Shown one piece after another: positions 5,403-29,518 of a stretch of DNA of 29,784 nucleotides. The stretch covers positions 1-29,784 of IMG/VR virus record IMGVR_UViG_3300006790_000078. One strand, written 5' to 3'. Under the pieces are notes generated by a model, which ran no database searches, had not been told where the DNA came from, and saw only the letters and a program-made list of their open reading frames with translations. Source of the DNA: a virus. Positions within the stretch are counted from its first letter, which is position 1. Each line of letters starts with the position of its first letter. Both the position numbers and the translations under genes were made by a program.

Positions 5403-5908
5403 CTAAAGGAGCTTACGTAAAACTGAACGAAATGGAGCAGCGGTTGGTCAAGACAGTTGCTAAGGGACGACGAGACTTTAACACGTTGCGTGGTACGAAG
5501 CGTGTGAAGTACCCAGACGTTAGTGACGAGTACCTGCCTGACATTGAAGGGTTTGCTGGTGAAGTAGCCTTTTGCAAAATCTTCAACATCTTCCCTGACA
5601 TGGACATACGACCCGTCACCCACGAAACAGACGACGGTGACTGTCTGTGGAACGGTCTACGCATCGACGTGAAGACAACCCACCGACCCGAAGGCAAGCT
5701 GTTGTGTAGCAACAACAAGAAGCTTGGCATGGTTGATTACTATGCACTGATGACAGGTGTGTTTCCCATGTACTTCTACAGGGGTGTTATCTCCGCTGAA
5801 GAGATGCTGGTCAGTGAACGCATGACCACGCTTATGCCCGTACCTGCCTACGTTGCGGACCAAGAAGAACTGTATGAACTAACAAACCCACAACTAGAAA
5901 AACGATGA
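5399..5908 (+). CDS. Putative PD-(D/E)XK-fold nuclease-like protein
   Basis: This 169-residue protein matches no named T7 product. The central part has the arrangement of a restriction-endonuclease-like fold: a helix with GFAGEVAF (E55), an acidic stretch DDGDCLWNGL (D81), then a strand with RIDVKTT (D90 and K92). Together these give E...D...DxK. A later strand-rich segment, MVDYYALMTGVFPMYFYRG, fits the typical beta strand after the core. Its start overlaps the lysozyme stop (ATGA) and its stop overlaps the DNA polymerase start (ATGA), so it is translationally coupled between the two. A role in host DNA breakdown or replication-intermediate processing is inferred from fold and place. A catalytically inactive fold relative is possible. 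Confidence 0.6.
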   Translation: MTKGAYVKLNEMEQRLVKTVAKGRRDFNTLRGTKRVKYPDVSDEYLPDIEGFAGEVAFCKIFNIFPDMDIRPVTHETDDGDCLWNGLRIDVKTTHRPEGKLLCSNNKKLGMVDYYALMTGVFPMYFYRGVISAEEMLVSERMTTLMPVPAYVADQEELYELTNPQLEKR

Positions 5909-7770
5909 AAGACGTAACACTATACTTCGACATAGAGACGAACGCAGTCGAAGACTTTGCCACGCTCAAGGGTGTGGAAAAGATACACTGCATGTCGGTC
6001 TATAATCCGATCAGTCAGAAGATGACCACCTTCACCACGGACACAATCCACATGGGTTTAGCCATGCTTGGTGAGGCAAGGTACATCTGTGGTCACAACA
6101 TTATTAACTTCGACCTGCCAGTCATGAAGAAACTGTTGAACTGGCAACCCAACGGACAGGTGTTGGATACACTGGTCACCAGTAGGTGTATGCACAGCGA
6201 CATTCGTGGTGTGGACATGCAACGTGGTGACGACTTTCCCAAGGAATTGTGGGGCAGTCACAGTCTCAAAGCATGGGGCTGGCGATTAGGACTGACCAAA
6301 GGTAACTACGGTGAGCAGGAACATGCTTGGGACAGTTACAACGAAGACATGAAGGAATACTGCGAGCGTGACGTGTTGGTCACTGTAAAGCTTGCACAGT
6401 TCCTGAAGGAGGACCAACCGTCCGTCAACATGCTGACCATCGAACACAGGTTCGCTAATATAATAAGAAGGCAGGAGCTTCGTGGCTTTACGTTTGATGA
6501 AGCAGCAGCACAGGACTTGTTGCAGACTTTGACCGTTCGACGGGCTGAACTACGGGACGAACTACAGACTGTCTTTCCACCAACACACGAAGAGATGAAG
6601 ACGGCTGCTGGCTGGTCTGTTGTTGTGGACGGTGAAGAATACACAGCCAAGACCAAGGGTGGCTTAAAGGCTGTGTTGAAAGAAGCAGGTCTGCCACAGG
6701 CAAGAGCCAACGATGCTGAGAAGCAAGGCAACAAGATCAAGTCAACACCCTTCAACCCAGGAAGCAGGGAACAGATAGCAGCACGTCTTAAAGCTTTAGG
6801 GTGGGAGCCGACAGTCTTTACACCTGACGGTCGTGCCAAGATTGATGAAGGTGTACTCAAAGGTATTAACCATCCGTCAGCAGCCAAGCTGTTGGAGTAC
6901 CTGATGGTGGTGAAACGTCTGGGACAGTTAGCCGAAGGTAAGAACGGTTGGCTCAGTTGTGTACAGAACGGCCGTATACACGGTCAGGTCAACACCAACG
7001 GAGCTGTCACAGGACGTTGTACCCACAGCCTACCCAACGTAGCACAAGTGCCAGCAGTCCGTGCTGAGTACGGCAAGGAGTGTCGGGCATTGTTCACAGC
7101 AGGTGAAGGCTTTGACCTTGTTGGTGTGGACGCTAGTGGACTGGAGTTACGTTGCCTTGCTCACTACCTAGCACTGTTCGACGGTGGTGAATACGGACGC
7201 TACTTGTTGGAAGACGACATACACACGGTCAACCAAAACGCTGCTGGTCTGGAGACAAGGGACCAAGCCAAGACGTTTATCTACGCATTCCTGTACGGTG
7301 CAGGTGACGCAAAGATAGGTGACATTGTTGGTGGTACAGCCAAAGAAGGTAAGCAGCTGAAGACACGGTTCCTTGCCAAAACACCAGCACTGGCTCGCCT
7401 CAAGAAGATCGTTGAGGAACGTGTTAAAAAGTATGGCTTTCTCAAAGGCATTGACGGACGTGTACTTCCCATACGCAGCGAACACGCAGCACTAAACACA
7501 TTACTACAGTCGTGTGGTGCTGTTGCCATGAAGCAAGCGTTGGTTCGATGTGACCAAGCCCTGCGAAAATTAAGCTGGCAATACGGAAAAGATTGGGCAT
7601 GGGTAGCTAATATCCATGACGAATTTCAAGCAGAGGTTGACCCGCTCAAAGTCGATTTGTACGGACGCATTGCTGTTGAGAGCATACGTATTGCTGGGGA
7701 TGACCTGCGTTTCAACTGCCCACTGGATGGTGAGTACAAGGTGGGCAAGAACTGGGCAGACACACATTGA
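5905..7770 (+). CDS. Family A DNA polymerase with 3'-5' exonuclease, T7 gp5-like
   Basis: This is the replicative polymerase. The N-terminal proofreading exonuclease has YFDIET (D9, E11; T7 D5, E7), a second block CGHNIINFDLPV and the later YCERDVLVT. The polymerase motifs are A: GVDASGLELRCLAH (D409; T7 D475), B: RDQAKTFIYAFLYGAG (R452, K456, Y460; T7 R518, K522, Y526, with identical spacing), and C: NIHDEFQ (H571, D572, E573; T7 D654). It has 621 residues against 704 in T7. The region between the thumb helices, where T7 holds its thioredoxin-binding loop, appears somewhat shorter and has a different sequence (about residues 225-290), so dependence on host thioredoxin cannot be assumed. It starts in an ATGA overlap with the preceding gene. 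Confidence 0.97.
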   Translation: MKDVTLYFDIETNAVEDFATLKGVEKIHCMSVYNPISQKMTTFTTDTIHMGLAMLGEARYICGHNIINFDLPVMKKLLNWQPNGQVLDTLVTSRCMHSDIRGVDMQRGDDFPKELWGSHSLKAWGWRLGLTKGNYGEQEHAWDSYNEDMKEYCERDVLVTVKLAQFLKEDQPSVNMLTIEHRFANIIRRQELRGFTFDEAAAQDLLQTLTVRRAELRDELQTVFPPTHEEMKTAAGWSVVVDGEEYTAKTKGGLKAVLKEAGLPQARANDAEKQGNKIKSTPFNPGSREQIAARLKALGWEPTVFTPDGRAKIDEGVLKGINHPSAAKLLEYLMVVKRLGQLAEGKNGWLSCVQNGRIHGQVNTNGAVTGRCTHSLPNVAQVPAVRAEYGKECRALFTAGEGFDLVGVDASGLELRCLAHYLALFDGGEYGRYLLEDDIHTVNQNAAGLETRDQAKTFIYAFLYGAGDAKIGDIVGGTAKEGKQLKTRFLAKTPALARLKKIVEERVKKYGFLKGIDGRVLPIRSEHAALNTLLQSCGAVAMKQALVRCDQALRKLSWQYGKDWAWVANIHDEFQAEVDPLKVDLYGRIAVESIRIAGDDLRFNCPLDGEYKVGKNWADTH

Positions 7771-7773
7771 CCC

Positions 7774-8169
7774 GTGAATCCGAGACAACATGAGGGCTTC
7801 ATCTACGAAGCTATATTCAAGGTGGAAGCGTTAAAGCGTATGTTTGACGTGTTGGAACCGTCAACAGTTCAGCCTTACGACCTGATCGTGGAATGCCCAC
7901 GGGGATTGGTGAAGGTACAGATTAAAGGGAGCAACCTAATTGGTCATCACGACTCAATGCGTTTCAAGGTTAACGACAACAGAAGGGTAACTAATTACAC
8001 AGAACTATTCGACGTAATGGCTTGCTACTTACAACCGTATGATTGTTGGTACTTACTACCATCATCCACACTAACGACAGGCTCCCTTCGTCTTTTCCCT
8101 AAAACGAAAACCAAGATTAGTAAGCGGGAACAATACAAGGATAATTGGTCCCTCTTTTACGAACAATAA
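7774..8169 (+). CDS. Putative PD-(D/E)XK endonuclease-like protein (QxK variant)
   Basis: This 131-residue protein has the core YDLIVECPRGLVKVQIKGS: D36 at the start of the hairpin, then Q49-x-K51 in the next strand. An N-terminal helix carries glutamates (E7, E12). This resembles small predicted PD-(D/E)XK endonucleases in which a VQVK-type strand replaces ExK. A later strand, LFDVMACYLQPYDCWYLLP, matches the hydrophobic strand and aromatic turn usual in this group. The start is a GTG 4 nt after the polymerase stop, with no clear ribosome-binding site; the next in-frame ATG (near 7840) would remove the N-terminal helix. It sits between polymerase and exonuclease, so a role in DNA processing is likely. 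Activity is unproven. Confidence 0.55.
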   Translation: MNPRQHEGFIYEAIFKVEALKRMFDVLEPSTVQPYDLIVECPRGLVKVQIKGSNLIGHHDSMRFKVNDNRRVTNYTELFDVMACYLQPYDCWYLLPSSTLTTGSLRLFPKTKTKISKREQYKDNWSLFYEQ

Positions 8170-8185
8170 AAACAAAAGGATAAAC

Positions 8186-9100
8186 ATGAGTAACAAAGAA
8201 CAAACAGTCATTCTGATAGACGGTGACGTACTAACCTATGAAGCAGGGTTTACCAGCCAGTACCCTGTTGAATGGGAAGAAGACCTGTGGACACTGCACG
8301 GTGACATGGGCAGAGCCAAGGACTACGTCCACGAACGTATCAACGAACTGGAAGAACATCTGGGTGCAACGTCTACCATCATCGCGTTTAGCGACAGTGC
8401 TAACTTCCGACGTAAGCTCAACCCATTATATAAGAGTAACAGGCGAGCATCGTTCAAACCCATCCTAATCAAACCCATCCGTGAGTGGATGAAGGAGACG
8501 TTTGAGTGTGAGTGTTGGCCCAACCTAGAGGCTGACGACGTACTGTCCATCCTCGCCACTGAAAGACCCAACAGATTAGACACACGTATTATCGTCAGTA
8601 TCGACAAGGACTTTCACGGTGTGCCGGGACGTTGGTACAACTTCAGAAAGCAAGAACATCACCATCCTAGCGAAGAGATGGCTGATCGTTTCCACCTGAT
8701 ACAAACAATCGCTGGTGACCACACAGACGGTTACAGTGGTGTACCTAAGTACGGTGTGAAGACAGCAACCAAGTACCTCGACAAGCACGGCTACACTTGG
8801 GACGCAGTGATGAAGCTGTACGACAAAGCCGACCTACCAGAAAGCGAAGCAGTAATGAATGCGTGGATGGCACGACTACTACGTAAGAACGAATACAATC
8901 TAAAAAATAAGGAGATAAACTATCTATGGCTACCAAAGACCTTCCGGACAGCGGACAAAAGAAGATATTCAACTCAGGTGCACAGCGTGACGGGGACGCT
9001 GGACGAGGACGACCAAGCCTTATTCCCCCATGCGCCATTCGCTCCCTTGCCGACCGCTACGAACAAGGAGCCGTCAAGTATGGTGACTGCAACTGGATGA
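8186..9100 (+). CDS. 5'-3' exonuclease, T7 gp6-like (FEN/RNase H family)
   Basis: Removes primers and digests duplex host DNA from 5' ends. Family features: VILIDGD (D12, D14), AFSDSANFRRKLNPLYKSNR (matching T7 FTDSVNWR...YKANR), NLEADDVLSIL with the acidic metal-binding pair, SIDKDFHGVPG and GDHTDGYSGVPKYG (helix-hairpin metal site). The match with T7 gp6 ends at MARLLRKNEYNL...YLWLP (P250), exactly where T7 gp6 ends (EIYLWRP). The reading frame here continues another 54 residues of low-conservation sequence (to 9100) that overlaps the next gene by 175 nt. AAAAGGA precedes the ATG. Function is firm; the C-terminal extension is odd and could be a drifted stop or a sequence error. Confidence 0.93.
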   Translation: MSNKEQTVILIDGDVLTYEAGFTSQYPVEWEEDLWTLHGDMGRAKDYVHERINELEEHLGATSTIIAFSDSANFRRKLNPLYKSNRRASFKPILIKPIREWMKETFECECWPNLEADDVLSILATERPNRLDTRIIVSIDKDFHGVPGRWYNFRKQEHHHPSEEMADRFHLIQTIAGDHTDGYSGVPKYGVKTATKYLDKHGYTWDAVMKLYDKADLPESEAVMNAWMARLLRKNEYNLKNKEINYLWLPKTFRTADKRRYSTQVHSVTGTLDEDDQALFPHAPFAPLPTATNKEPSSMVTATG

Positions 9101-9288
9101 AGGGTGTTCCCCTTAGTCGGTACGTAGACAGTCTGTCCCGTCATTTACTAGCAGTGAACGAGGGTGATGAATCAGAAGACCATCTTGGTGCAATCCTGTG
9201 GAATGCAGCGTCCATGATGTGGACAAAACAAGCCATCAAGGACGGCAAGCTCGACGCAAACCTTAACGACTTAGCATTCAATGAATAA
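8926..9288 (+). CDS. Putative dATP/dGTP diphosphohydrolase N-terminal-domain protein (DUF5664-like)
   Basis: The 120-residue protein shows the pattern of the small phage family often labelled dATP/dGTP diphosphohydrolase, N-terminal: FNSGAQRDGDAGRGRPSLIP, then SLADRYEQGAVKYGDCNWMKG, LSRYVDSLSRHLLAVNEGD and SEDHLGAILWNAASMMW. The DHL and RHL positions are characteristic of the family. This suggests a nucleotide-pool role, perhaps cleaving purine dNTPs, but many members are untested. AAGGAG at 8909-8914 lies 11 nt before the ATG, a good site that supports starting inside the exonuclease frame. Since that site coincides with the end of the conserved exonuclease core, the 175-nt overlap is probably due to the exonuclease extension rather than a wrong start here. 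Confidence 0.7.
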   Translation: MATKDLPDSGQKKIFNSGAQRDGDAGRGRPSLIPPCAIRSLADRYEQGAVKYGDCNWMKGVPLSRYVDSLSRHLLAVNEGDESEDHLGAILWNAASMMWTKQAIKDGKLDANLNDLAFNE

Positions 9289-9478
9289 CCCTATACGAAA
9301 ATTACCCGATTTAAGTAAGGACTTGATCGACCGTTTGGACGAGATGTACCCAGCACGTTGTGCCGACATTAGTTGGCCCGACCGTAAGGTGTGGTACTAC
9401 GCAGGACAACGTGCGGTCATTGATCACCTTATTGCAGTTTATAATGAACAGAACGAAACAATCATCATACAGGACTAA
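9281..9478 (+). CDS. Small conserved phage protein of unknown function
   Basis: The 65-residue protein begins MNNPIRKLPDLSKDLIDRLD, then MYPARCADISWPDRKVWYYA and GQRAVIDHLI. The pattern (LIDxLDExxPxRCxDxxxxxRxxWxxAGQRxVxxxL) recurs in small proteins next to structural genes in tailed phages, but no function is known to me. Mostly helical by appearance, with no membrane segment. The start overlaps the stop of the preceding gene by 8 nt. Confidence 0.65.
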   Translation: MNNPIRKLPDLSKDLIDRLDEMYPARCADISWPDRKVWYYAGQRAVIDHLIAVYNEQNETIIIQD

Positions 9479-9480
9479 TT

Positions 9481-9699
9481 ATGTGTTTAGGACGACCCAA
9501 AGTATCAGCACCACCCCCGCCACCACCGCCACCACCAGCACCCCCTCCACCAGTGCCTACGGCTGCGGTAGTCCAACCTGCGTCCAAAAGGGCTGCTGGT
9601 TCTGCAACCAAGCGTAGACGGGGAACAGCACAACTGACAGTCCGTCGTCCTTCTATCGGTGGTTATGGTGGAGGATCGGGGGTGAACGTCCCTAAATAG
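9481..9699 (+). CDS. Short poly-proline phage protein
   Basis: This 72-residue protein starts MCLGRPKVSAPPPPPPPPP, continues proline-rich to about residue 24, then has a basic segment (SKRAAGSATKRRR) and a short strand-like end, GTAQLTVRRPSIGGYGGGSG. Small proteins of the type MC-G-poly-P followed by a basic patch are common just upstream of head genes in podoviruses; function unknown, possibly virion-associated. It is preceded by AGGA, close to the stop of the previous gene. The codons for the proline run form a CCN-rich simple repeat at about 9509-9553. Confidence 0.65.
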   Translation: MCLGRPKVSAPPPPPPPPPAPPPPVPTAAVVQPASKRAAGSATKRRRGTAQLTVRRPSIGGYGGGSGVNVPK

Positions 9700-9710
9700 G
9701 AATTACAATT

Positions 9711-10031
9711 ATGAGCGTTATATCACTACAAAAAAACACGCTGCTTAGCGGAGTTACTGCCAACACCACAGGCAGCAGTCACGGAACGGAACACGCTAAA
9801 GGCTGGACGTTCTCCATTGTTGCTGAGTCGGTGAGCAGTGGTGCTACCGTGGACATTCAGGCATACGTTGGAGCGAACTGGTACAGCATACACGAAGAAG
9901 TAATTACAGCTTCTGGTGCGTTCATGGTCCGTGACGACGAAGGTCATTACGAGAAGATGCGAGCCAAGGTCAGCAACTATTCTGACGGTACGTACACAGT
10001 CTACGCAACAGGTACAGCCAACTCACTCTAA
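9711..10031 (+). CDS. Small beta-rich protein, possible virion decoration protein
   Basis: This 106-residue protein is not recognised as a named family. It is rich in S, T, G and V with alternating strand-like segments (GWTFSIVAESVSSGATVDIQ, ANWYSIHEEV, GTYTVYATGTANSL), suggesting a compact beta-sandwich. There is no signal peptide or membrane segment. TAGGAA lies 9-10 nt before the ATG. It directly precedes the LamG-domain gene with a 3-nt gap, and the two look co-expressed. Position before the portal gene and composition suggest a virion-surface role. This is inference only. Confidence 0.6.
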   Translation: MSVISLQKNTLLSGVTANTTGSSHGTEHAKGWTFSIVAESVSSGATVDIQAYVGANWYSIHEEVITASGAFMVRDDEGHYEKMRAKVSNYSDGTYTVYATGTANSL

Positions 10032-10034
10032 CAC

Positions 10035-12116
10035 ATGGCACTAAAGGCATTGTCTGGGGTAACCCAAGGAGCGTCCAGCTTCGCTAGGTTGCCTAACGGT
10101 TTTACACGCTCGTCAAAACTGACGCAGACCTTGCCGATAGACGCAGTTAACAAAGCTACTATTCGTGTTGTTATTGGAACAACTGCTGTTGGTGCTGGTG
10201 TATTTAACAGATCAGCAACAACAGGGATAACCATTGGGGTTACAGCCAGCGGACAGCAAACAGATCAACAGCATTACGGTACTGCTACCGTTGGAGTTGT
10301 CATCAGTTCAACAGCATCTGCTTCAGTAACTTCTACGCACAGCGGTACAGCAACAGCATCGATAGTTATTACTGCAACTGCTGCGGGGGACACAGGAGCA
10401 ACTCACGCTGGTACTGCTAACATTGGTGTAACTATTTCAGCGACTGCTAGTGGTACTGCTTCACAGACTCATGCAGGTGTAGCTTCTTGTCAGGTTAACC
10501 TAAGCGTAAGTGCAGCAGGGTTTAATACCAAGACTCAAGTACCTGATGAGACGAGTAACAATAACGACATGATGTTGTATGCTGACGGATCAGGCACTCA
10601 ATACGCTTACTCGAGTGATTCAGCAGTAGGAACACGCTCATTAGATTTTGAAGGGGACGGATCTGTTGCTGGTTCTGGTGGTTACGGAATTATAGACAAT
10701 ACATTTCAAAGCGTATTCCGCTCATCGTTTTCTATAAGTGCTTGGGTAAAACTGGATGATGGTGATGCTACTTATAATTGGATTTTATCTAACTACCCAA
10801 GTGGTGGAGACGGAGGTAATAATAATCATGTATCACTCAGCTTCTCTGGAGGTATACACGGAGGTGATCCTTCTTTTACATATAAGGCAGGAACAGTTAA
10901 TAACACCGCCCAAGACCATGATTACAATTTAGCAAGCGGACAGTCTGGGTGGATGCACATAGTCGGCACTTTCAATGCTGTCAATAGTGGCATGTATTTG
11001 TATGTTAACGGCACGCAAGTTCACTTTGATAGTACTAGCATCGACCCAACTGAGTACACCAACTCCGTCAAGATGCGGGTTAATAAATTTGAATCTACAA
11101 GTACTAACTACGTTTATACTGGCAAGAAAATTGATGACATAAGTATCTGGTCAAAAGCTTTATCATCTACCGAAGTATCTAACATGTATAACAGCGGTAA
11201 TGGTACGAACCTGTCTGGCAGTAGTGATCTTGAAGGCTGGTGGAAGATGGGTGACCATACTGTAGTACCAGTTACCCACTCAGGCACAGCAACAGTTTCA
11301 GTAGCGGTTACAGCAAGTGCTAGTGGTAATGCGTTTACAGCACACTCAGGAACAGCCTCCTGCCAAGTCAACCTATCAGCATCTGCTAGTGGAAGTGCGT
11401 TCACACCCTTTACGAACAGTTATAGTGTTAATTTAGATAATACTAACGACTACATAAATGGTAACAATTTTAACGCTAACACCATTATCGGTACGGGCGA
11501 TATGACTGTTTCAATGTGGGTAAAGTTAGACACAACAGTAGCGTTTGACACATTCATTTACGTAGGAGCGTCTAGTTCAGATGCCGAGTATCTTCAATTA
11601 CGTTTGTTTGAGGTTAGTGGCGCACTCAAACTGGACCTGAGAGCAAGAGTTGGTTCATCAGGTAATGCTCAGTGTACTGGCACAACTACTGTAACCACAG
11701 GAAGTTGGCATAACTTAGCTTTCACTAGAACTGGAACAACCGCTAAAGTTTATCTCAATGGTTCTTTAGAGCAAACCGCAACCGATTCAAATTTTGGTGC
11801 AGACTTTGGGACAAGCACAAACACTACAACATGGATAGGCGCGTACAAGGGTGGTTACTCTCACATGGACGGGTTGATTGACGAAATAGCTATCTGGGAT
11901 GATGTTTTGTCAGCTACTGAGATAACAGCAATTTACAACAATGGCGCACCTATAAGCCTAACAAGTAACTCAGGTAACTACGCATCTTCTACAAACCTTG
12001 TGGGGTGGTGGCGCATGGAAGAAGGAAGCGGTACTAGCATTGCCGACAGTTCTACTAACAGTAATGCGATAACCCTTACAAATGGTCCAACCTTTAGTAC
12101 AGACGTTCCATCATGA
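10035..12116 (+). CDS. Large repeat protein with two LamG/ConA-like lectin domains, probable virion adhesin
   Basis: The 693-residue protein consists of an N-terminal part (1-79), four tandem 22-residue repeats (80-167), a LamG-like domain (about 168-405), two more repeats (415-458) and a second LamG-like domain (about 459-693). The LamG type (Laminin_G_3) is shown by paired signatures: SISAWVKL / TVSMWVKL; GWMHIVGTFN / SWHNLAFTRTG; MYLYVNGTQ / KVYLNGSLEQ; KIDDISIWSKALSSTEV / LIDEIAIWDDVLSATEI; LEGWWKMGD / LVGWWRMEEGSG. Such domains bind carbohydrate or protein ligands and are found in phage adhesins and decoration proteins. No catalytic motif is seen. T-ending codons (ACT, GCT) are commoner here than in neighbouring replication genes, hinting at separate acquisition. 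Its ATG lies 3 nt after the previous stop, with no obvious ribosome-binding site. It ends in an ATGA overlap with the next gene. Whether it sits on head or tail is unknown. Confidence 0.78.
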   Translation: MALKALSGVTQGASSFARLPNGFTRSSKLTQTLPIDAVNKATIRVVIGTTAVGAGVFNRSATTGITIGVTASGQQTDQQHYGTATVGVVISSTASASVTSTHSGTATASIVITATAAGDTGATHAGTANIGVTISATASGTASQTHAGVASCQVNLSVSAAGFNTKTQVPDETSNNNDMMLYADGSGTQYAYSSDSAVGTRSLDFEGDGSVAGSGGYGIIDNTFQSVFRSSFSISAWVKLDDGDATYNWILSNYPSGGDGGNNNHVSLSFSGGIHGGDPSFTYKAGTVNNTAQDHDYNLASGQSGWMHIVGTFNAVNSGMYLYVNGTQVHFDSTSIDPTEYTNSVKMRVNKFESTSTNYVYTGKKIDDISIWSKALSSTEVSNMYNSGNGTNLSGSSDLEGWWKMGDHTVVPVTHSGTATVSVAVTASASGNAFTAHSGTASCQVNLSASASGSAFTPFTNSYSVNLDNTNDYINGNNFNANTIIGTGDMTVSMWVKLDTTVAFDTFIYVGASSSDAEYLQLRLFEVSGALKLDLRARVGSSGNAQCTGTTTVTTGSWHNLAFTRTGTTAKVYLNGSLEQTATDSNFGADFGTSTNTTTWIGAYKGGYSHMDGLIDEIAIWDDVLSATEITAIYNNGAPISLTSNSGNYASSTNLVGWWRMEEGSGTSIADSSTNSNAITLTNGPTFSTDVPS
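10272..10535 (+). repeat. Four tandem 66-bp units encoding a 22-residue repeat
   Basis: Units start at 10272, 10338, 10404 and 10470. Each encodes H-(Y/S/A)-G-(T/V)-A followed by an alternating V/I/S/T strand (HYGTATVGVV, HSGTATASIV, HAGTANIGVT, HAGVASCQVN) and a small-residue turn. All units are exactly 22 codons, but the DNA is diverged, so this is an old duplication kept by protein structure. It probably forms a beta stalk leading to the first LamG domain. Confidence 0.8.
11277..11408 (+). repeat. Two further 66-bp units of the same 22-residue repeat
   Basis: Units at 11277 and 11343 encode HSGTATVSVAVTASASGNAF and HSGTASCQVNLSASASGSAF. The second is closest to unit 4 of the upstream array (both contain ASCQVNLS). 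The spacing of one repeat pair before each LamG domain suggests that a block of repeats plus LamG was duplicated. Confidence 0.75.
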
Positions 12117-12352
12117 GCCGACAATACGTGATTTTAAACGCTACCGAAGCGCAAGCCATAGACTTTAGCGAAGTGCTTGAGACTAGTTATGAAACACTCC
12201 GCTGGAACAACGACAGCACCAAGACTTTCGTTAAGTACGAAGGAGACACACCAGCATGGTTAGTGGGCAAGACTGCTTACACCAAGGCTGAGATGTTAAC
12301 CATTTTAAACAATCCCGATGGTGAGTGGTACACCGATCCAGAAGGACTTTAA
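12113..12352 (+). CDS. Small phage protein of unknown function
   Basis: The 79-residue protein begins MSRQYVILNATEAQAIDFSE and has VLETSYETLRWNNDSTKTFV and KYEGDTPAWL. Proteins with this N-terminal pattern (YVI-NATE---IDFS-VLETS--TLR---D-TKTFVKY-G) occur after fibre-type genes in several phages; no function is known to me. Acidic, soluble, with no membrane segment. Its ATG overlaps the LamG gene stop (ATGA), indicating translational coupling and perhaps a role as chaperone or accessory factor of that protein, which is speculative. Confidence 0.6.
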   Translation: MSRQYVILNATEAQAIDFSEVLETSYETLRWNNDSTKTFVKYEGDTPAWLVGKTAYTKAEMLTILNNPDGEWYTDPEGL

Positions 12353-12386
12353 CTAACATAACTATAAATAACAGGAGACACTAATC

Positions 12387-12788
12387 ATGTCAGAAGCATC
12401 AGACTACGTTGAGAACCAGATACTTAACTGCTATCTCAATCAAACAAACATCACAGCACCAACTGCTATCTACGTTGGACTACATACTGCTAATCCTACG
12501 GACGCTGGTACAGGTACGGAAGTTAGCGGAAACGGATATGCCCGTGTAGCTATTACCGACAAGTTTGGTACAGCAAGTGGAACTGGAGGCAGTCTTTCCA
12601 GTAACGCTGACATAACGGGCTTTACCGCTGATGGTGCTAACTGGGGAACCATTACACATATCGGTATTTATGACGCAAGCACCAGCGGCAACCTCCTATT
12701 TCATACTGCTTTAGACAGTTCCGCTACCGTTAACGACGGTGATTCATTCCAAATCTCAAGCGGCAACCTAACTGTAACCGTAGCTTAA
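12387..12788 (+). CDS. Conserved beta-rich phage structural protein (Gp80-like family)
   Basis: The 133-residue protein fits a widespread tailed-phage family: an N-terminal helix (SDYVENQILNCYL), then IYVGLHTANPTDAGTGTEV, GNGYARVAITDKFGTASGTG, ADITGFTADGANWGTITHIG, IYDASTSGNLLFHTAL and a C-terminal strand repeat, DGDSFQISSGNLTVTVA. Members are usually annotated as minor tail or virion proteins, with no enzymatic role. AGGAG (about 12372-12376) lies 10 nt before the ATG. It directly precedes portal. A structural role is likely, but its location in the virion is unknown. Confidence 0.68.
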   Translation: MSEASDYVENQILNCYLNQTNITAPTAIYVGLHTANPTDAGTGTEVSGNGYARVAITDKFGTASGTGGSLSSNADITGFTADGANWGTITHIGIYDASTSGNLLFHTALDSSATVNDGDSFQISSGNLTVTVA

Positions 12789-12795
12789 TAACACC

Positions 12796-14355
12796 ATGCA
12801 ACAGGAAGAGACTGCACAGAATCTATATTCGCAACTGGAAAACCAGCGGTGGTCCTTCCTTGATCGTGGAAGGCAAGCTTCCGAGTTAACTATTCCATAC
12901 ATTCTACCACCCGATGGAGCGAATCACGCTACCAAATACTACACTCCATATCAGGGTATTGGGGCGAGAGGTGTTAACAATTTAGCAAGTAAGCTACTGT
13001 TGGCACTTCTTCCCCCCAATGCTCCCTTCTTCCGACTGACCATTGACAGGTTTGAGTTGGACAAGGCCAAGTCTGAACTTGGTGAAGAAGGTGGTGAGCA
13101 ACTACGTACTGACCTTGAGAAAGCACTGGCAGAAGTTGAACGGTCTGTCATGCAGGAAGTTGAAGTGGAAGCATTCCGTGTTGGAGTGTTTGAAGCACTG
13201 AAGAACCTGCTCATCACAGGCAACACTCTGTTGTACCTACCTGACGAAGGTGGGATGCGTGTGTTCCGTCCTGATCGGTTTGTTGTGAAGCGTGACCCAA
13301 TGGGCAACGTAACGCACATAGCCACCAAGGAAACAATAGCACCCATGATGTTGCCAGACAGCGTCAGGAACGAAGTGTACAAGGACAGCGGTAAAGAAAA
13401 CACCTGTGACCTGTACACGGCTATCTGTCGTCGGGACAACAAGTTCATCGTCTACCAAGACGTTAAAGGCATTACCATTGAAGAGAGTTACGGTGAATAC
13501 CCACTAGACAAAGTACCTTGGTTACCACTCCGTTACACCCGCATTGACGGTGAAGATTACGGACGAGGCTTTGTCGAGGAATACATGGGTGACCTGAAGA
13601 GTCTTGAAAGCCTTACAAGGGCGATTGTCGAAGGTTCAGCCGCTGCTGCCAAGGTGTTGTTCATGGTCAACCCTAACGGGACGACAAGAGCCAAGACACT
13701 TGCAGAAGCAGCTAACGGTGCAATCGTTCAAGGTAGTGACGCTGACGTTAGTGTGTTGCAGCTACAGAAGTTCAACGACTTTCGTGTGGCTCAGACCACA
13801 ATGGCAGCAATACAGGAACGACTAAGCCATGCCTTCCTACTCAACAGTAGTGTTGTACGGGACGCTGAACGTGTTACCGCTGAAGAAATACGTATGCTCT
13901 CACAGGAACTGGAAGCAGCGTTAGGCGGTCTGTACTCAATTCTTTCACAGGAGTTTCAACTTCCTTTGGTCACCAGCCTCATGGCTAGAATGAACAAAGA
14001 AGGACGGCTCCCAAAACTTCCAAAAGACATAGTCAAACCAACCATTGTAACAGGGGTTGAGGCTTTGGGTCGGGGTAACGACTTGAACAGGCTTGACATG
14101 TTTCTGGCGGGAGCCACCCAAGTTGTTGGACCAGAAGCTGTTTCTCAGTACGTCAACGTGGGTGACTATTTTAAACGCAGGGCAACTGCTCTGGGTATTG
14201 AAACGGAGGGACTAATCAAAAGCGACGAACAGTTACAGCAGGAAGCACAGGCTGCACAGATGCAGCAGATGGCTGAAAAGCTGGGTGGTCCAGCCATTAA
14301 CGCAATGAGTCAACAGGCTCTGGCGCAACCAGACCAAGCCGAGCCACAACAATAA
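12796..14355 (+). CDS. Portal (head-tail connector) protein, T7 gp8-like
   Basis: This forms the dodecameric portal ring for DNA packaging and ejection. The 519-residue protein (T7 536) matches gp8 throughout: YQGIGARGVNNLASKLLLAL, FEALKNLLITGNTLLYLPDE, DGEDYGRGFVEEYMGDLKSL, LSHAFLLNSSVVRDAERVTA, EEIRMLSQELEAALGGLYSI and a Q/A-rich C terminus (QQEAQAAQMQQMAEK). The gap to the previous gene is 7 nt and the ribosome-binding site is weak. Scaffold follows 13 nt downstream, as in T7. Confidence 0.97.
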   Translation: MQQEETAQNLYSQLENQRWSFLDRGRQASELTIPYILPPDGANHATKYYTPYQGIGARGVNNLASKLLLALLPPNAPFFRLTIDRFELDKAKSELGEEGGEQLRTDLEKALAEVERSVMQEVEVEAFRVGVFEALKNLLITGNTLLYLPDEGGMRVFRPDRFVVKRDPMGNVTHIATKETIAPMMLPDSVRNEVYKDSGKENTCDLYTAICRRDNKFIVYQDVKGITIEESYGEYPLDKVPWLPLRYTRIDGEDYGRGFVEEYMGDLKSLESLTRAIVEGSAAAAKVLFMVNPNGTTRAKTLAEAANGAIVQGSDADVSVLQLQKFNDFRVAQTTMAAIQERLSHAFLLNSSVVRDAERVTAEEIRMLSQELEAALGGLYSILSQEFQLPLVTSLMARMNKEGRLPKLPKDIVKPTIVTGVEALGRGNDLNRLDMFLAGATQVVGPEAVSQYVNVGDYFKRRATALGIETEGLIKSDEQLQQEAQAAQMQQMAEKLGGPAINAMSQQALAQPDQAEPQQ

Positions 14356-27030: not shown

Positions 27031-28845
27031 ATGGCTAACACATATGTAGACTACACAGGTAACGGTAGCACCCAAACCTTTGCTTTCACTTTTGACTACC
27101 TAGAATCAACCCACATTAAAGTTGAAGTAGACAGTGTTGAAACAACTGCGTTTACCGTAAACGCTTCAGCAAAAACGGTCACATTGACTACTGCTCCTGC
27201 TGCTGGATCAGTCCTACGTATTCGACGTGATAGCAATTCTTCCGTTGCTCTCATGGACTTTTCAGACGGCTCTGTGTTGGTCGAAAATGATCTGGATAGA
27301 GCGTACCTACACAACTTGTACCTTAACGAAGAACTGGACGAGTTGAATAACCTGTCACTTCAGAAGGTAGTAGGTGGTGACGACTGGGACGCTAAAGGTC
27401 ACAAAATAACTAACCTTGGTACAATAGACGACACTGACGCTGCAAACGTCGCAACACCTAAAGGCTACGTAGACGATAGTATTTCAAGAGCAGTCACAGG
27501 TGTTAAAAGTGGACCGTTAAAGTACGTTGTGTCAGGAGCAAGCGGTGCTAACGGCACAGACACTACCTTCTCATTTGGTAGTGATATTAGTGTTGGAATG
27601 GACACGGTCTACGACGTTAACATTGACGGAGTGTTCCAAGAACCTAAAGCAGGTACGTCCGAAGGTTCGTTCTCAGTTAACGCTAACAACAACACCATTA
27701 CATTTGATAGTCCACCACCTAGCGGTTCACGGGTCGTTGTCGTTGTGCGTGGTTACGCTCAAGAAGTAACTACTGGTAGTGTTACCACAAACACAATTGC
27801 TGATGACGCAGTCAATAACTCAAAGATTGCGGACGACGCAATAGAAACTGCTAACATAAAAGACTTAAATGTCACTAACGGTAAGATAGCAGACGCTACA
27901 ATTACCACAGGTAAGCTTGCTGCTATTGACGAGGGTAAGCTTATTGTTGGTCAGTCAAGTGGATCACCTTCTGCCCAAGCTGTAAGCGGGGACGCTACCT
28001 TAACAGCCACAGGACAATTAACAATCGGACCCAACGCTGTGACCACAGCTAAAATGGCTAACATGGCACAAGGTGTGTTGGGCAACACGACTGCTAACAC
28101 ATCAAGTGTAGCTGTAGTTCCGTTTGGAGCAGTAGCTGATAGTTCAACCAACATATGTACAGCCCAACAAATCAAGACTTACGTTGACGATCAGGTGGCA
28201 ACTAAAGACACACTTGATGAAATTGGGGAACAAACTTCTAGTCCTAACGAACTAGATACTGATAAAAAACATTTTACAAAAGGAGAAAAAGATAAGCTTG
28301 CAGATATTGAACTAAACGCAGACGTAACAGACACAGCTAATGTTGTAGCGGCTCTACAAAGCGGTGGAAACATTCAAATAGACGAAAACACCGACCAAGT
28401 AGGAATAAACGGTGCGCCAAGCGATATAGCTACTGATTACTACGATCTGACAGTACACGGGGAAACACTTATTAAACAGCCTTCGGGCGATAGCAACGCT
28501 CAACTTACTGTTGAAAACACCCGAACGTCAGGGAATAATTTAACCGCAATATTAGTTGTTCAAGCTAAAGAAAGTGCTGTTATTCGTCTACATGATAACG
28601 ATGCGTCCAGCGGTGTTGATACTTACGACATTGCCTCTGAAAACGGTGAATTAAAATTTGCAACGTTAGATGATAGTACCAATCCTGCTACAGGTTTTGA
28701 ATTATTTAGAGTCACTAAACAAAATCTAGGCGGCACGAATAAAACGATAATGAACATGTCAGGTTTACCTGATGCTACTCAGTTAAGTAGTTTGCAAACT
28801 GGTGACCTATATCAAGACAATGGTACTGTTAAAATTAAGACCTAG
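27031..28845 (+). CDS. Tail fibre protein with T7 gp17-type N-terminal anchor
   Basis: Host-recognition fibre. The N-terminal domain (1 to about 115) is the T7 tail-fibre attachment module: YVDYTGNGSTQTFAFTFDYL, IKVEVDSVE, VTLTTAPAAGSVLRIRRDSN and DFSDGSVLVENDLDRAYLHN. Then come a coil/linker (WDAKGHKITNLGTIDDTDAA), a beta domain (RVVVVVRGYAQEV) and a stalk of short repeats (DDAVNNSKIADDAIETANIK, NGKIADATITTGKLA). The distal part, with AQLTVENTRTSGNNLTAIL, is unlike T7. Length 604 versus 553. The distal third (from about 28200) uses more A/T-ending codons than the anchor, consistent with exchange of receptor-binding tips. No intramolecular chaperone or depolymerase motif was recognised. Confidence 0.92.
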   Translation: MANTYVDYTGNGSTQTFAFTFDYLESTHIKVEVDSVETTAFTVNASAKTVTLTTAPAAGSVLRIRRDSNSSVALMDFSDGSVLVENDLDRAYLHNLYLNEELDELNNLSLQKVVGGDDWDAKGHKITNLGTIDDTDAANVATPKGYVDDSISRAVTGVKSGPLKYVVSGASGANGTDTTFSFGSDISVGMDTVYDVNIDGVFQEPKAGTSEGSFSVNANNNTITFDSPPPSGSRVVVVVRGYAQEVTTGSVTTNTIADDAVNNSKIADDAIETANIKDLNVTNGKIADATITTGKLAAIDEGKLIVGQSSGSPSAQAVSGDATLTATGQLTIGPNAVTTAKMANMAQGVLGNTTANTSSVAVVPFGAVADSSTNICTAQQIKTYVDDQVATKDTLDEIGEQTSSPNELDTDKKHFTKGEKDKLADIELNADVTDTANVVAALQSGGNIQIDENTDQVGINGAPSDIATDYYDLTVHGETLIKQPSGDSNAQLTVENTRTSGNNLTAILVVQAKESAVIRLHDNDASSGVDTYDIASENGELKFATLDDSTNPATGFELFRVTKQNLGGTNKTIMNMSGLPDATQLSSLQTGDLYQDNGTVKIKT

Positions 28846-28870: not shown

Positions 28871-29518
28871 ATGGCTATTACCCAAACTCACTCTCGAATG
28901 ATCAGCGACTTGGACGCTGGCACTACCTACCTAACTTCATCCAGTATCGGAACGGCTGCTCCTTTGGACGTAGGCACGTCGGCTAACAACGTCGTTCAAC
29001 TGGACAGCAACAATCCACCACGTTTACCAGCAGTAGACGGTAGCCAACTGACGGGTATTAGCACTTCTGTGCCAGTAATTGTGTTGCGTGACGAGCAAAG
29101 TAGCGGAACAGACGGAGGAACAGCAACGTCAGGTTCTTGGGGTACTAGGGTATTAAACACCGAAGCAACAGACACGGACAACCACTGTGCGTTATCATCT
29201 AACCAGTTTACGTTGTCAGCGGGTAACTACGAGATTAATGCGTCTAGTACGTTTTACCGTACCCAACAAAGTCAAATAAAACTTTATAACACTACAAGCA
29301 CAGCAGACTTACTACTAGGTAATGTTGTTTACTTCGACAACACAAACTTAGTAGGTGGAGTGTGTACGTTATCTGGTTATTTTACAGTAGCAGCTTCTCA
29401 AGCTTTAGAGATTCAATACCGAGTTTTAAACACACACGCATCAACGGGGTTAGGTTCAGCGGGTAACTGGGGAACGGAAGTGTACACCCAAGTAATGCTT
29501 CGAAAGGTAGGCGCATAA
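28871..29518 (+). CDS. Second fibre/adhesin with C1q-like C-terminal domain
   Basis: The 215-residue protein has a short N-terminal fibre stretch (DVGTSANNVVQLDSNNPPRL, PAVDGSQLTGI), a pattern common in phage fibres, followed by a beta domain from VPVIVLRDEQSSGTDGGTAT to the end. NQFTLSAGNYEINASSTFYR, QSQIKLYNTTSTADLLLGN and SQALEIQYRVLNTHA resemble the jelly-roll (C1q/TNF-like) tips of phage tail fibres. It lacks the T7 anchor domain, so it probably attaches to the main fibre or acts as its tip. The start is the ATG at 28871; a nearer ATG at 28864 is in another frame with no long product. It follows the fibre gene by 25 nt. Confidence 0.75.
   Translation: MAITQTHSRMISDLDAGTTYLTSSSIGTAAPLDVGTSANNVVQLDSNNPPRLPAVDGSQLTGISTSVPVIVLRDEQSSGTDGGTATSGSWGTRVLNTEATDTDNHCALSSNQFTLSAGNYEINASSTFYRTQQSQIKLYNTTSTADLLLGNVVYFDNTNLVGGVCTLSGYFTVAASQALEIQYRVLNTHASTGLGSAGNWGTEVYTQVMLRKVGA

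Follow-up and report, generated by a model that had tools for sequence, protein, structure and literature searches.

The window analysed here, a stretch of 29,784 nucleotides (positions 1 to 29,784 of the IMG/VR virus record IMGVR_UViG_3300006790_000078), covers the genome of a T7-like phage incompletely and carries genes for a single-subunit RNA polymerase, for DNA replication, for the major capsid protein and for tail proteins, with the portal (head-tail connector) gene at 12796 and a T7-type tail fibre (gp17-type, PF03906) at 27031-28845. When its first 24 kb were compared by megablast with 50,697 phage records, 16 records gave a match, confined to a stretch no longer than 53 bases. The subject of this work is the gene at 10035..12116, encoding a putative "rope-adhesin" with LamG-like lectin domains and tandem 22-residue repeats (hereafter the adhesin), together with its neighbours gene 9711 (9711..10031), gene 12113 (12113..12352) and gene 12387 (12387..12788), all on the plus strand.

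The adhesin gene is an intact reading frame of 693 codons with an ATG start and no internal stop, located between the DNA-metabolism genes and the portal, as an earlier, sequence-only reading of this DNA had described. Its product starts with a segment of 36 residues (10035..10142), presumed to serve as a virion anchor, followed by a first repeat block (10143..10538), in which a degenerate copy (approximately residues 37-58, recognized by eye) precedes five full 22-residue repeats (residues 59-168), by LamG-like domain 1 (10539..11249, residues 169-405, limits approximate, delineated by PF13385 and AlphaFold2 strands), by a second block of two repeats (11280..11408, residues 416-458) and by LamG domain 2 (11442..11924, residues 470-630), which is the best PF13385 stretch and is followed by a C-terminal extension to residue 693. 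PF13385 (Laminin_G_3) is matched in two stretches with E 1.4e-36 and 126.4 bits, against a cut-off of 27.6, which bears out the two LamG-like domains of the earlier reading. The self-match score of the protein at lag 22 is 152, compared to maxima of 58 in 200 shuffles of the whole protein and 66 in 500 shuffles of its first 170 residues, and a profile of the family repeat detects seven copies, starting at residues 59, 81, 103, 126, 148, 416 and 438. The period of 22 and the two repeats in the second block had been read correctly, while the four counted in the first block are five, or six with the degenerate copy. The repeat-plus-LamG unit recurs inside the protein and three or four PF13385 stretches are found in relatives (three in L002, four in L004 and L014; none was detected in L007; loci and contigs are designated here by L numbers), in agreement with the internal duplication proposed earlier.

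Structure prediction, suggested in the sequence-only reading as a check on the LamG domains, gave the expected result. The AlphaFold2 model of the whole protein (mean pLDDT 59.7, pTM 0.41, from an alignment of 8 sequences) is strand-rich in the LamG regions, where ten-residue means of pLDDT are mostly 60-90, and each repeat is modelled as one long strand plus a turn, with pLDDT below 50. Foldseek reported 444 matches at E≤0.001 with laminin LG domain pairs first, the top one being the LG4-5 pair of laminin (1dyk, E 4.7e-15); its low TM-scores (0.17/0.31) presumably arise because two domains and a linker do not superpose as one body. Model and matches together display the beta-sandwich fold of LamG/ConA-like lectins. 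PF03906 is absent from the adhesin at E≤0.1, and the whole protein has no match among the 50,697 phage records at 1e-5. By visual inspection, carriers of T7-like type share an N-terminal segment with a common LPN.F.RSS-type motif, while the carriers that are not T7-like, L004 (same contig as L009) and L007, have another N-terminus and share the repeats and LamG regions, a difference between phage types that would fit a virion-specific anchor.

Gene 12387 encodes a protein of 133 residues, a homologue of gp80, the fibril protein of Ralstonia phage GP4 (PF23140, E 2.9e-45). Its sole strong match in the PDB is 8jou_a (E 1.9e-14), from an entry with 10 chains of that sequence. PF23140 is named for the fibre protein of GP4, and PHROG 240 files relatives of gp80 as 'head protein' in the category head and packaging; names given to the family in phage records also include tail tube B, minor tail protein, virion associated protein and b-glycanase. 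Named phages were reached via gp80 only, in two comparisons that matched 99 and 266 records, the best 60 of which were considered in each case. The homologue in phiM5 is annotated as 'detected in phage particle proteome', and BcepMigl gp56 and gp57 are both annotated as 'virion associated protein'. In GP4, five gp80 dimers are reportedly linked by an elongated rope protein, which suggested to us that the 22-residue repeats, encoded two genes upstream of gp80 in the window, could be such a rope. According to PMC13243795, a gp80 homologue with a solved structure forms a tail fibril, gp80 homologues are dimers, and a module of Alishewanella phage LSH1 containing one of them was found in the virion by mass spectrometry.

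The association of repeats with gp80 was examined in the slot ahead of the portal in T7-like relatives. Sixty-five loci, related by portal or by gene 9711, were read gene by gene, and 34 contigs were chosen by hand, comprising 28 of these loci, five gp80 loci (L011, L012, L014, L015, L017) and the window; cut-off slots and duplicate contigs were dropped, including L112, L145 and L149, which carry gp80 and a repeat protein. According to the profile, at least two repeats are present in 11 of the 12 slot contigs with gp80 (in the remaining one, L010, the adhesin is truncated to its final 76 residues) and repeats of this type in none of the 22 without it, among which there are near relatives, e.g. 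L160/L162, L128/L144 and L170/L172. A profile-free lag test flagged no slot adhesin in contigs without gp80, and flagged otherwise only proteins of the scaffold, portal, primase and gene 9711 kinds. A search over the whole length of nine contigs without gp80 in the slot (L135 and eight of the 22; 20-42 kb) detected no gp80, and the two positives included with them were matched.

The slot itself is occupied in all 22 gp80-less relatives, so the LamG gene, described earlier as inserted, fills a position that other genes hold in these phages and was not added to a vacant one. The occupant is LamG- or fibre-like in nine of them (L115, L119, L156, L158, L159, L160, L167, L170, L172) and not recognizable as either in the other 13. 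A protein similar to the adhesin is found in six (L115, L119, L158, L159, L160, L167), and PF13385 was confirmed in all three proteins tested (L115, L158, L167). In L156, L167, L170 and L172 the slot is filled by proteins related to the product of another gene of the window, at 28871-29518, which suggests that fibre modules move between both places.

Beyond T7-like phages, 51 genes of 26 phage records were tested for repeats next to gp80, with coordinates taken from the records except for one frame in L090; on L100, L103 and L110 one side only was tested, and on L088 an HNH gene adjoining gp80 was passed over. An adjoining gene with a lag-20 self-match of z≥5 was found in 16 of the 26 records, of which L110 (baseplate lysozyme) is doubtful. 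A wider survey covered 107 gp80 loci (80 from one search, the window and the 26 phage records), which fall into 26 clusters at 70% identity, and considered genes of at least 100 residues on the same strand, with repeats of 19-23 residues at z≥5; the gp80 frame was forced into the survey, and found in 107 of 107, the repeat gene of BcepMigl is missed, and the 79-residue gene 12113 of the window was skipped in counting nearest genes. The nearest gene on one side of gp80 bears repeats in 13 of the 26 cluster representatives (at most 52 such genes), and a repeat gene lies within two genes of gp80 in 14, the extra one, L094, being doubtful, as its match at -2 is probably false and its gene at +1 (z 5.4) is a better candidate. 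Farther than two genes from gp80, 7 of 176 genes bear repeats, three of which (L086, L088, L101) look like genuine repeat strings. Without clustering, and hence in redundant loci, such repeats are found in the +1 gene of 46 of 74 loci from IMG/VR and of 8 of 20 from phages, compared to 0-14% at every other offset, 14% being the value at offset -2, the place of the repeat gene in the window's family. The pattern occurs across podo-, sipho- and myo-like gene sets. In the reverse direction, among contigs collected by their repeat protein alone, gp80 was found in all 17 with a repeat gene of the MEP402 type and in 31 of 79 with one of the Venkman type, including 21 of the 22 in which the sequence ahead of the repeat gene extends for 7 kb or more. 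None of 102 gp80 frames is fused to repeats; the only long one (L091) seems to be extended at its upstream end.

Near-identical phages have swapped the adhesin together with most of gene 12113, as seen from a break in identity flanked by near-identical backbone. The DNA of the window is 95.8% identical to that of L121 over 5549-10030, has no blastn match up to 12302 and is again 92.6% identical from 12303; compared with L113, high identity stops at 10458 and resumes at 12302, apart from two short pieces. The portals of the three phages are 99-100% identical. The borders of the exchange, about 10030 and 12303, thus lie where the adhesin gene begins, or within its repeat region, and in the conserved 3' end of gene 12113, which together with the gp80 leader forms the right border of the swapped DNA (12303..12386). 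Gene 12113 encodes 79 residues and has no significant match in Pfam or PHROGs, including families of fibre assembly. This small gene occurs in three types, each of which goes with one type of adhesin C-terminus in 13 of 14 loci; the exception is L009, where a second adhesin gene lies between the repeat-LamG gene and the small gene and the types mismatch. This second adhesin-like gene (L009, 6629-7519) encodes approximately 300 residues, and a similar one follows the repeat-LamG gene in L114 (1000-1911). In L113 (6470-6620) and L012 (2012-2161), DNA of the type-1 C-terminal tail persists after the stop codon of a type-3 small gene, as expected of a recombination scar, or of a conserved recombination site. 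The cassette also crosses phage types, since closely similar genes occur in L007 and L009, whose whole records (28.3 and 23.5 kb) contain no match to the portal of the window: the small gene of L007 is 88% identical to that of L121, and the gp80 protein of L009 is 99% identical to that of T7-like L011.

Gene 9711, on the other hand, does not belong to this cassette. Its 106-residue, beta-rich product follows the backbone, with 97-99% identity among the window, L121 and L113, and it is present in T7-like relatives that have neither gp80 nor repeats. Its AlphaFold2 model (mean pLDDT 58.8) contains six strands, has no fold match in the PDB at E≤0.001, and the protein matches no phage record at 0.01. 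The block 9711-12352, regarded earlier as a unit whose presence or absence could be followed in related phages, therefore comes apart: the part that holds together is 10035-12788, including gp80. For this reason, and in view of the borders at about 10030 and 12303, the reading of the whole block as a module and that of a capsid-surface location, for which this analysis found no evidence, were both demoted. A host-binding role is the likeliest, in keeping with the LamG domains, the gp80-like fibre partner, the LamG- or fibre-like occupants of the slot and the swaps between near-identical phages.

We propose, with a probability of roughly 0.6, that the adhesin is the string and the payload of a beaded side fibre, of which gp80-like dimers are the beads. 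The N-terminal segment would anchor the chain to the virion near the tail vertex, perhaps via the product of gene 9711, possibly the attachment point. Each 22-residue repeat would be a docking site for a dimer of the protein from 12387, so that eight units, including the degenerate one, would offer up to eight sites, and dimers on successive repeats would stiffen the string into a beaded fibril. LamG1 within the chain and LamG2 at its end would bind a glycan on the host surface, and the product of gene 12113, a candidate adhesin-specific assembly factor, may help to fold or cap the terminal domain. Recombination in conserved regions (the beginning of the adhesin gene, its repeats and the 3' end of gene 12113) would exchange the payload, so that a swap changes the adhesin and leaves its fit to the virion and to the gp80 beads intact. 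The chain-like side fibre would be additional to the T7-type fibre at 27031, which would stay separate. The homologies of gp80 and LamG, the repeats, their association with gp80 and the swaps are observed; the physical threading, the stoichiometry of dimers to repeats, attachment at the tail vertex, glycan binding and the assembly role of gene 12113 we infer.

Several observations weigh against this proposal. The profile used in the slot test was built from gp80-carrying phages and favours finding repeats there. The contigs are not independent: two changes suffice to explain where gp80 occurs on the portal tree (starred branches force one; 0 of 500 shuffles are as low), which implies few independent events. 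Ten of the 26 phage records have no adjoining gene with z≥5; in L086 and L088 a gene with strong 20-residue repeats lies further downstream, and in L101 one with 22-residue repeats lies three genes from gp80, leaving seven with neither (L087, z 4.0; L096, z 3.2; L099, L100, L102, L103 and L111). L196 carries a repeat gene of the Venkman type and no gp80 in its whole record of 23.6 kb, possibly a fragment. The repeat gene of BcepMigl has approximately seven units of 20 residues, as counted by eye, compared to the five dimers reported for GP4, so that a ratio of one dimer per repeat is uncertain. Finally, pLDDT below 50 in the modelled repeats fits a missing partner and fits disorder equally well.

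The most serious competitor is an ordinary lectin-like fibre of the tail or head, with the repeats as a flexible or self-folding spacer (e.g. a beta-solenoid or a trimeric stalk) and gp80 as a mere neighbour with another role in the virion. It would account for the LamG proteins that fill the same slot without repeats or gp80, according to which the adhesin needs no gp80, for the single strand per repeat in the AlphaFold2 model and for the label 'head protein' of PHROG 240. That label is a category, however, while PF23140 carries the name of the GP4 fibre protein, and a mere neighbour would hardly be expected from the lack of repeats in all 22 gp80-less contigs or from the repeat genes beside gp80 in half of the clusters, in gene sets of all three tail types; we therefore consider this explanation unlikely. 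Ig-like and lectin-like decorations are known on phage heads, and the adhesin could be a capsid-surface decoration or head fibre whose LamG domains give loose attachment to glycans of the host or of mucus, as its position directly before the head genes and the 'head and packaging' class of PHROG 240 would suggest; we find it distinctly improbable, as gene order is weak evidence of location when the neighbours of the cassette differ between phage types, and the solved gp80 homologue is described as a tail fibril (PMC13243795). LamG domains are common in secreted proteins and this phage is known from metagenomic DNA alone, yet an accessory, non-virion protein, e.g. a secreted or cell-surface one, is very improbable in view of the virion annotations of gp80 homologues in phiM5 and BcepMigl and the mass spectrometry of the LSH1 module (PMC13243795).

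The beaded side fibre would work like fibre I of GP4 (PDB 8JOU, Zheng et al. 2023), with the same bead protein, its threading and site of attachment being deduced by analogy. The window shares with GP4 the gp80 homologue and a tandem-repeat linker encoded nearby, the latter being a feature that we read from relatives of GP4 in place of a published definition; in BcepMigl, whose gp80 is 68% identical to that of GP4, a 20-residue repeat protein adjoins it (its best PDB match has E 0.2). It differs from fibre I in that string and adhesin are one polypeptide, in the repeat of 22 residues instead of the 20 of GP4-related BcepMigl, in the two built-in LamG domains as payload, and in the T7-like genome, which has a T7-type tail fibre too. 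The three-gene virion module gp34-gp36 of LSH1 similarly comprises an adhesin, the gp80 homologue gp35 and a poorly predicted, possibly repetitive stretch for which its authors had no explanation (PMC13243795); its adhesin is a lyase-like beta-helix in a siphovirus, in contrast to LamG in a T7-like phage. An open remark there is the only link between gp80 and a repetitive partner that we found in a literature search that mostly leaves subscription journals uncovered, so a prior description is possible. Slicko01, also named in the LSH1 paper, was searched whole for gp80 without a match. With LamG/ConA-like lectins (PF13385) the adhesin shares the profile and the strand-rich models, and it has its domains mounted in a repeat chain. 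T7 gp17 is also the adhesin of a T7-like phage, but the gp17-type fibre of the window is separate. Lambda Tfa and T4 gp38 are tail-fibre assembly proteins paired with fibre tips; gene 12113 likewise follows an adhesin and changes type with its C-terminal domain, without sequence match to families of the Tfa/gp38 type.

Whether PF23140 proteins and repeat proteins with a strand and turn per 20-22 residues form a general two-part machine of podo-, sipho- and myo-like phages is, in our estimate, an even bet. If they do, the length of the beaded chain would be set by the number of repeats, and the payload, LamG in this case and other domains in other phages, would be freely exchanged, unrelated types of phage included, as compatibility is required of the anchor and of the interface of repeat and bead alone. 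This would explain the unpredictable, 'hallucinated' stretches beside gp80 homologues, e.g. in LSH1 gp34, and might account for the failure of structure prediction on repeat parts of this kind. The pairing of a PF23140 gene with an adjoining gene for 20-22-residue repeats could then serve as a rule to flag chain-like fibres, reaching genes now annotated as 'hypothetical', 'head protein' or 'tail tube B'. For T7-like phages it points to a second, exchangeable arm of host recognition, and to a modular fibre of natural origin in which the number of repeats may determine the length.

Some further observations concern annotation and the surroundings of the locus. In L101 (Octadecabacter virus DB2), gp11 (7065-8591, 508 residues) has strong 22-residue tandem repeats and is annotated as 'ribonuclease E'; it is probably a misannotated part of a fibre. 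In L090 (Agrobacterium phage Atu_ph08), an unannotated frame of 184 residues with 20-residue repeats adjoins gp80 at 6369-6923, where a gene on the other strand is annotated instead. A scan of 9600-12900 of the window for promoters and terminators was uninformative, with two promoter-like sites (shuffle mean 4.8) and three terminator-like ones (mean 2.4). The interval in question had been said to contain only small genes in T7; small as they may be, not all are trivial, as gp6.7 and gp7.3, encoded there, are virion proteins (PMC11784390). At roughly their place, the window encodes a protein of 72 residues (9481-9699) with a proline run and a basic, glycine-rich C-terminus, which has a weak PHROG match only (E 0.009). 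The gene at 28871-29518 encodes a fibre-like protein of 215 residues (PHROG 24210), and relatives with 52-72% identity are found near gene 9711 in the gp80-less T7-like contigs L156, L165-L167 and L170-L172.

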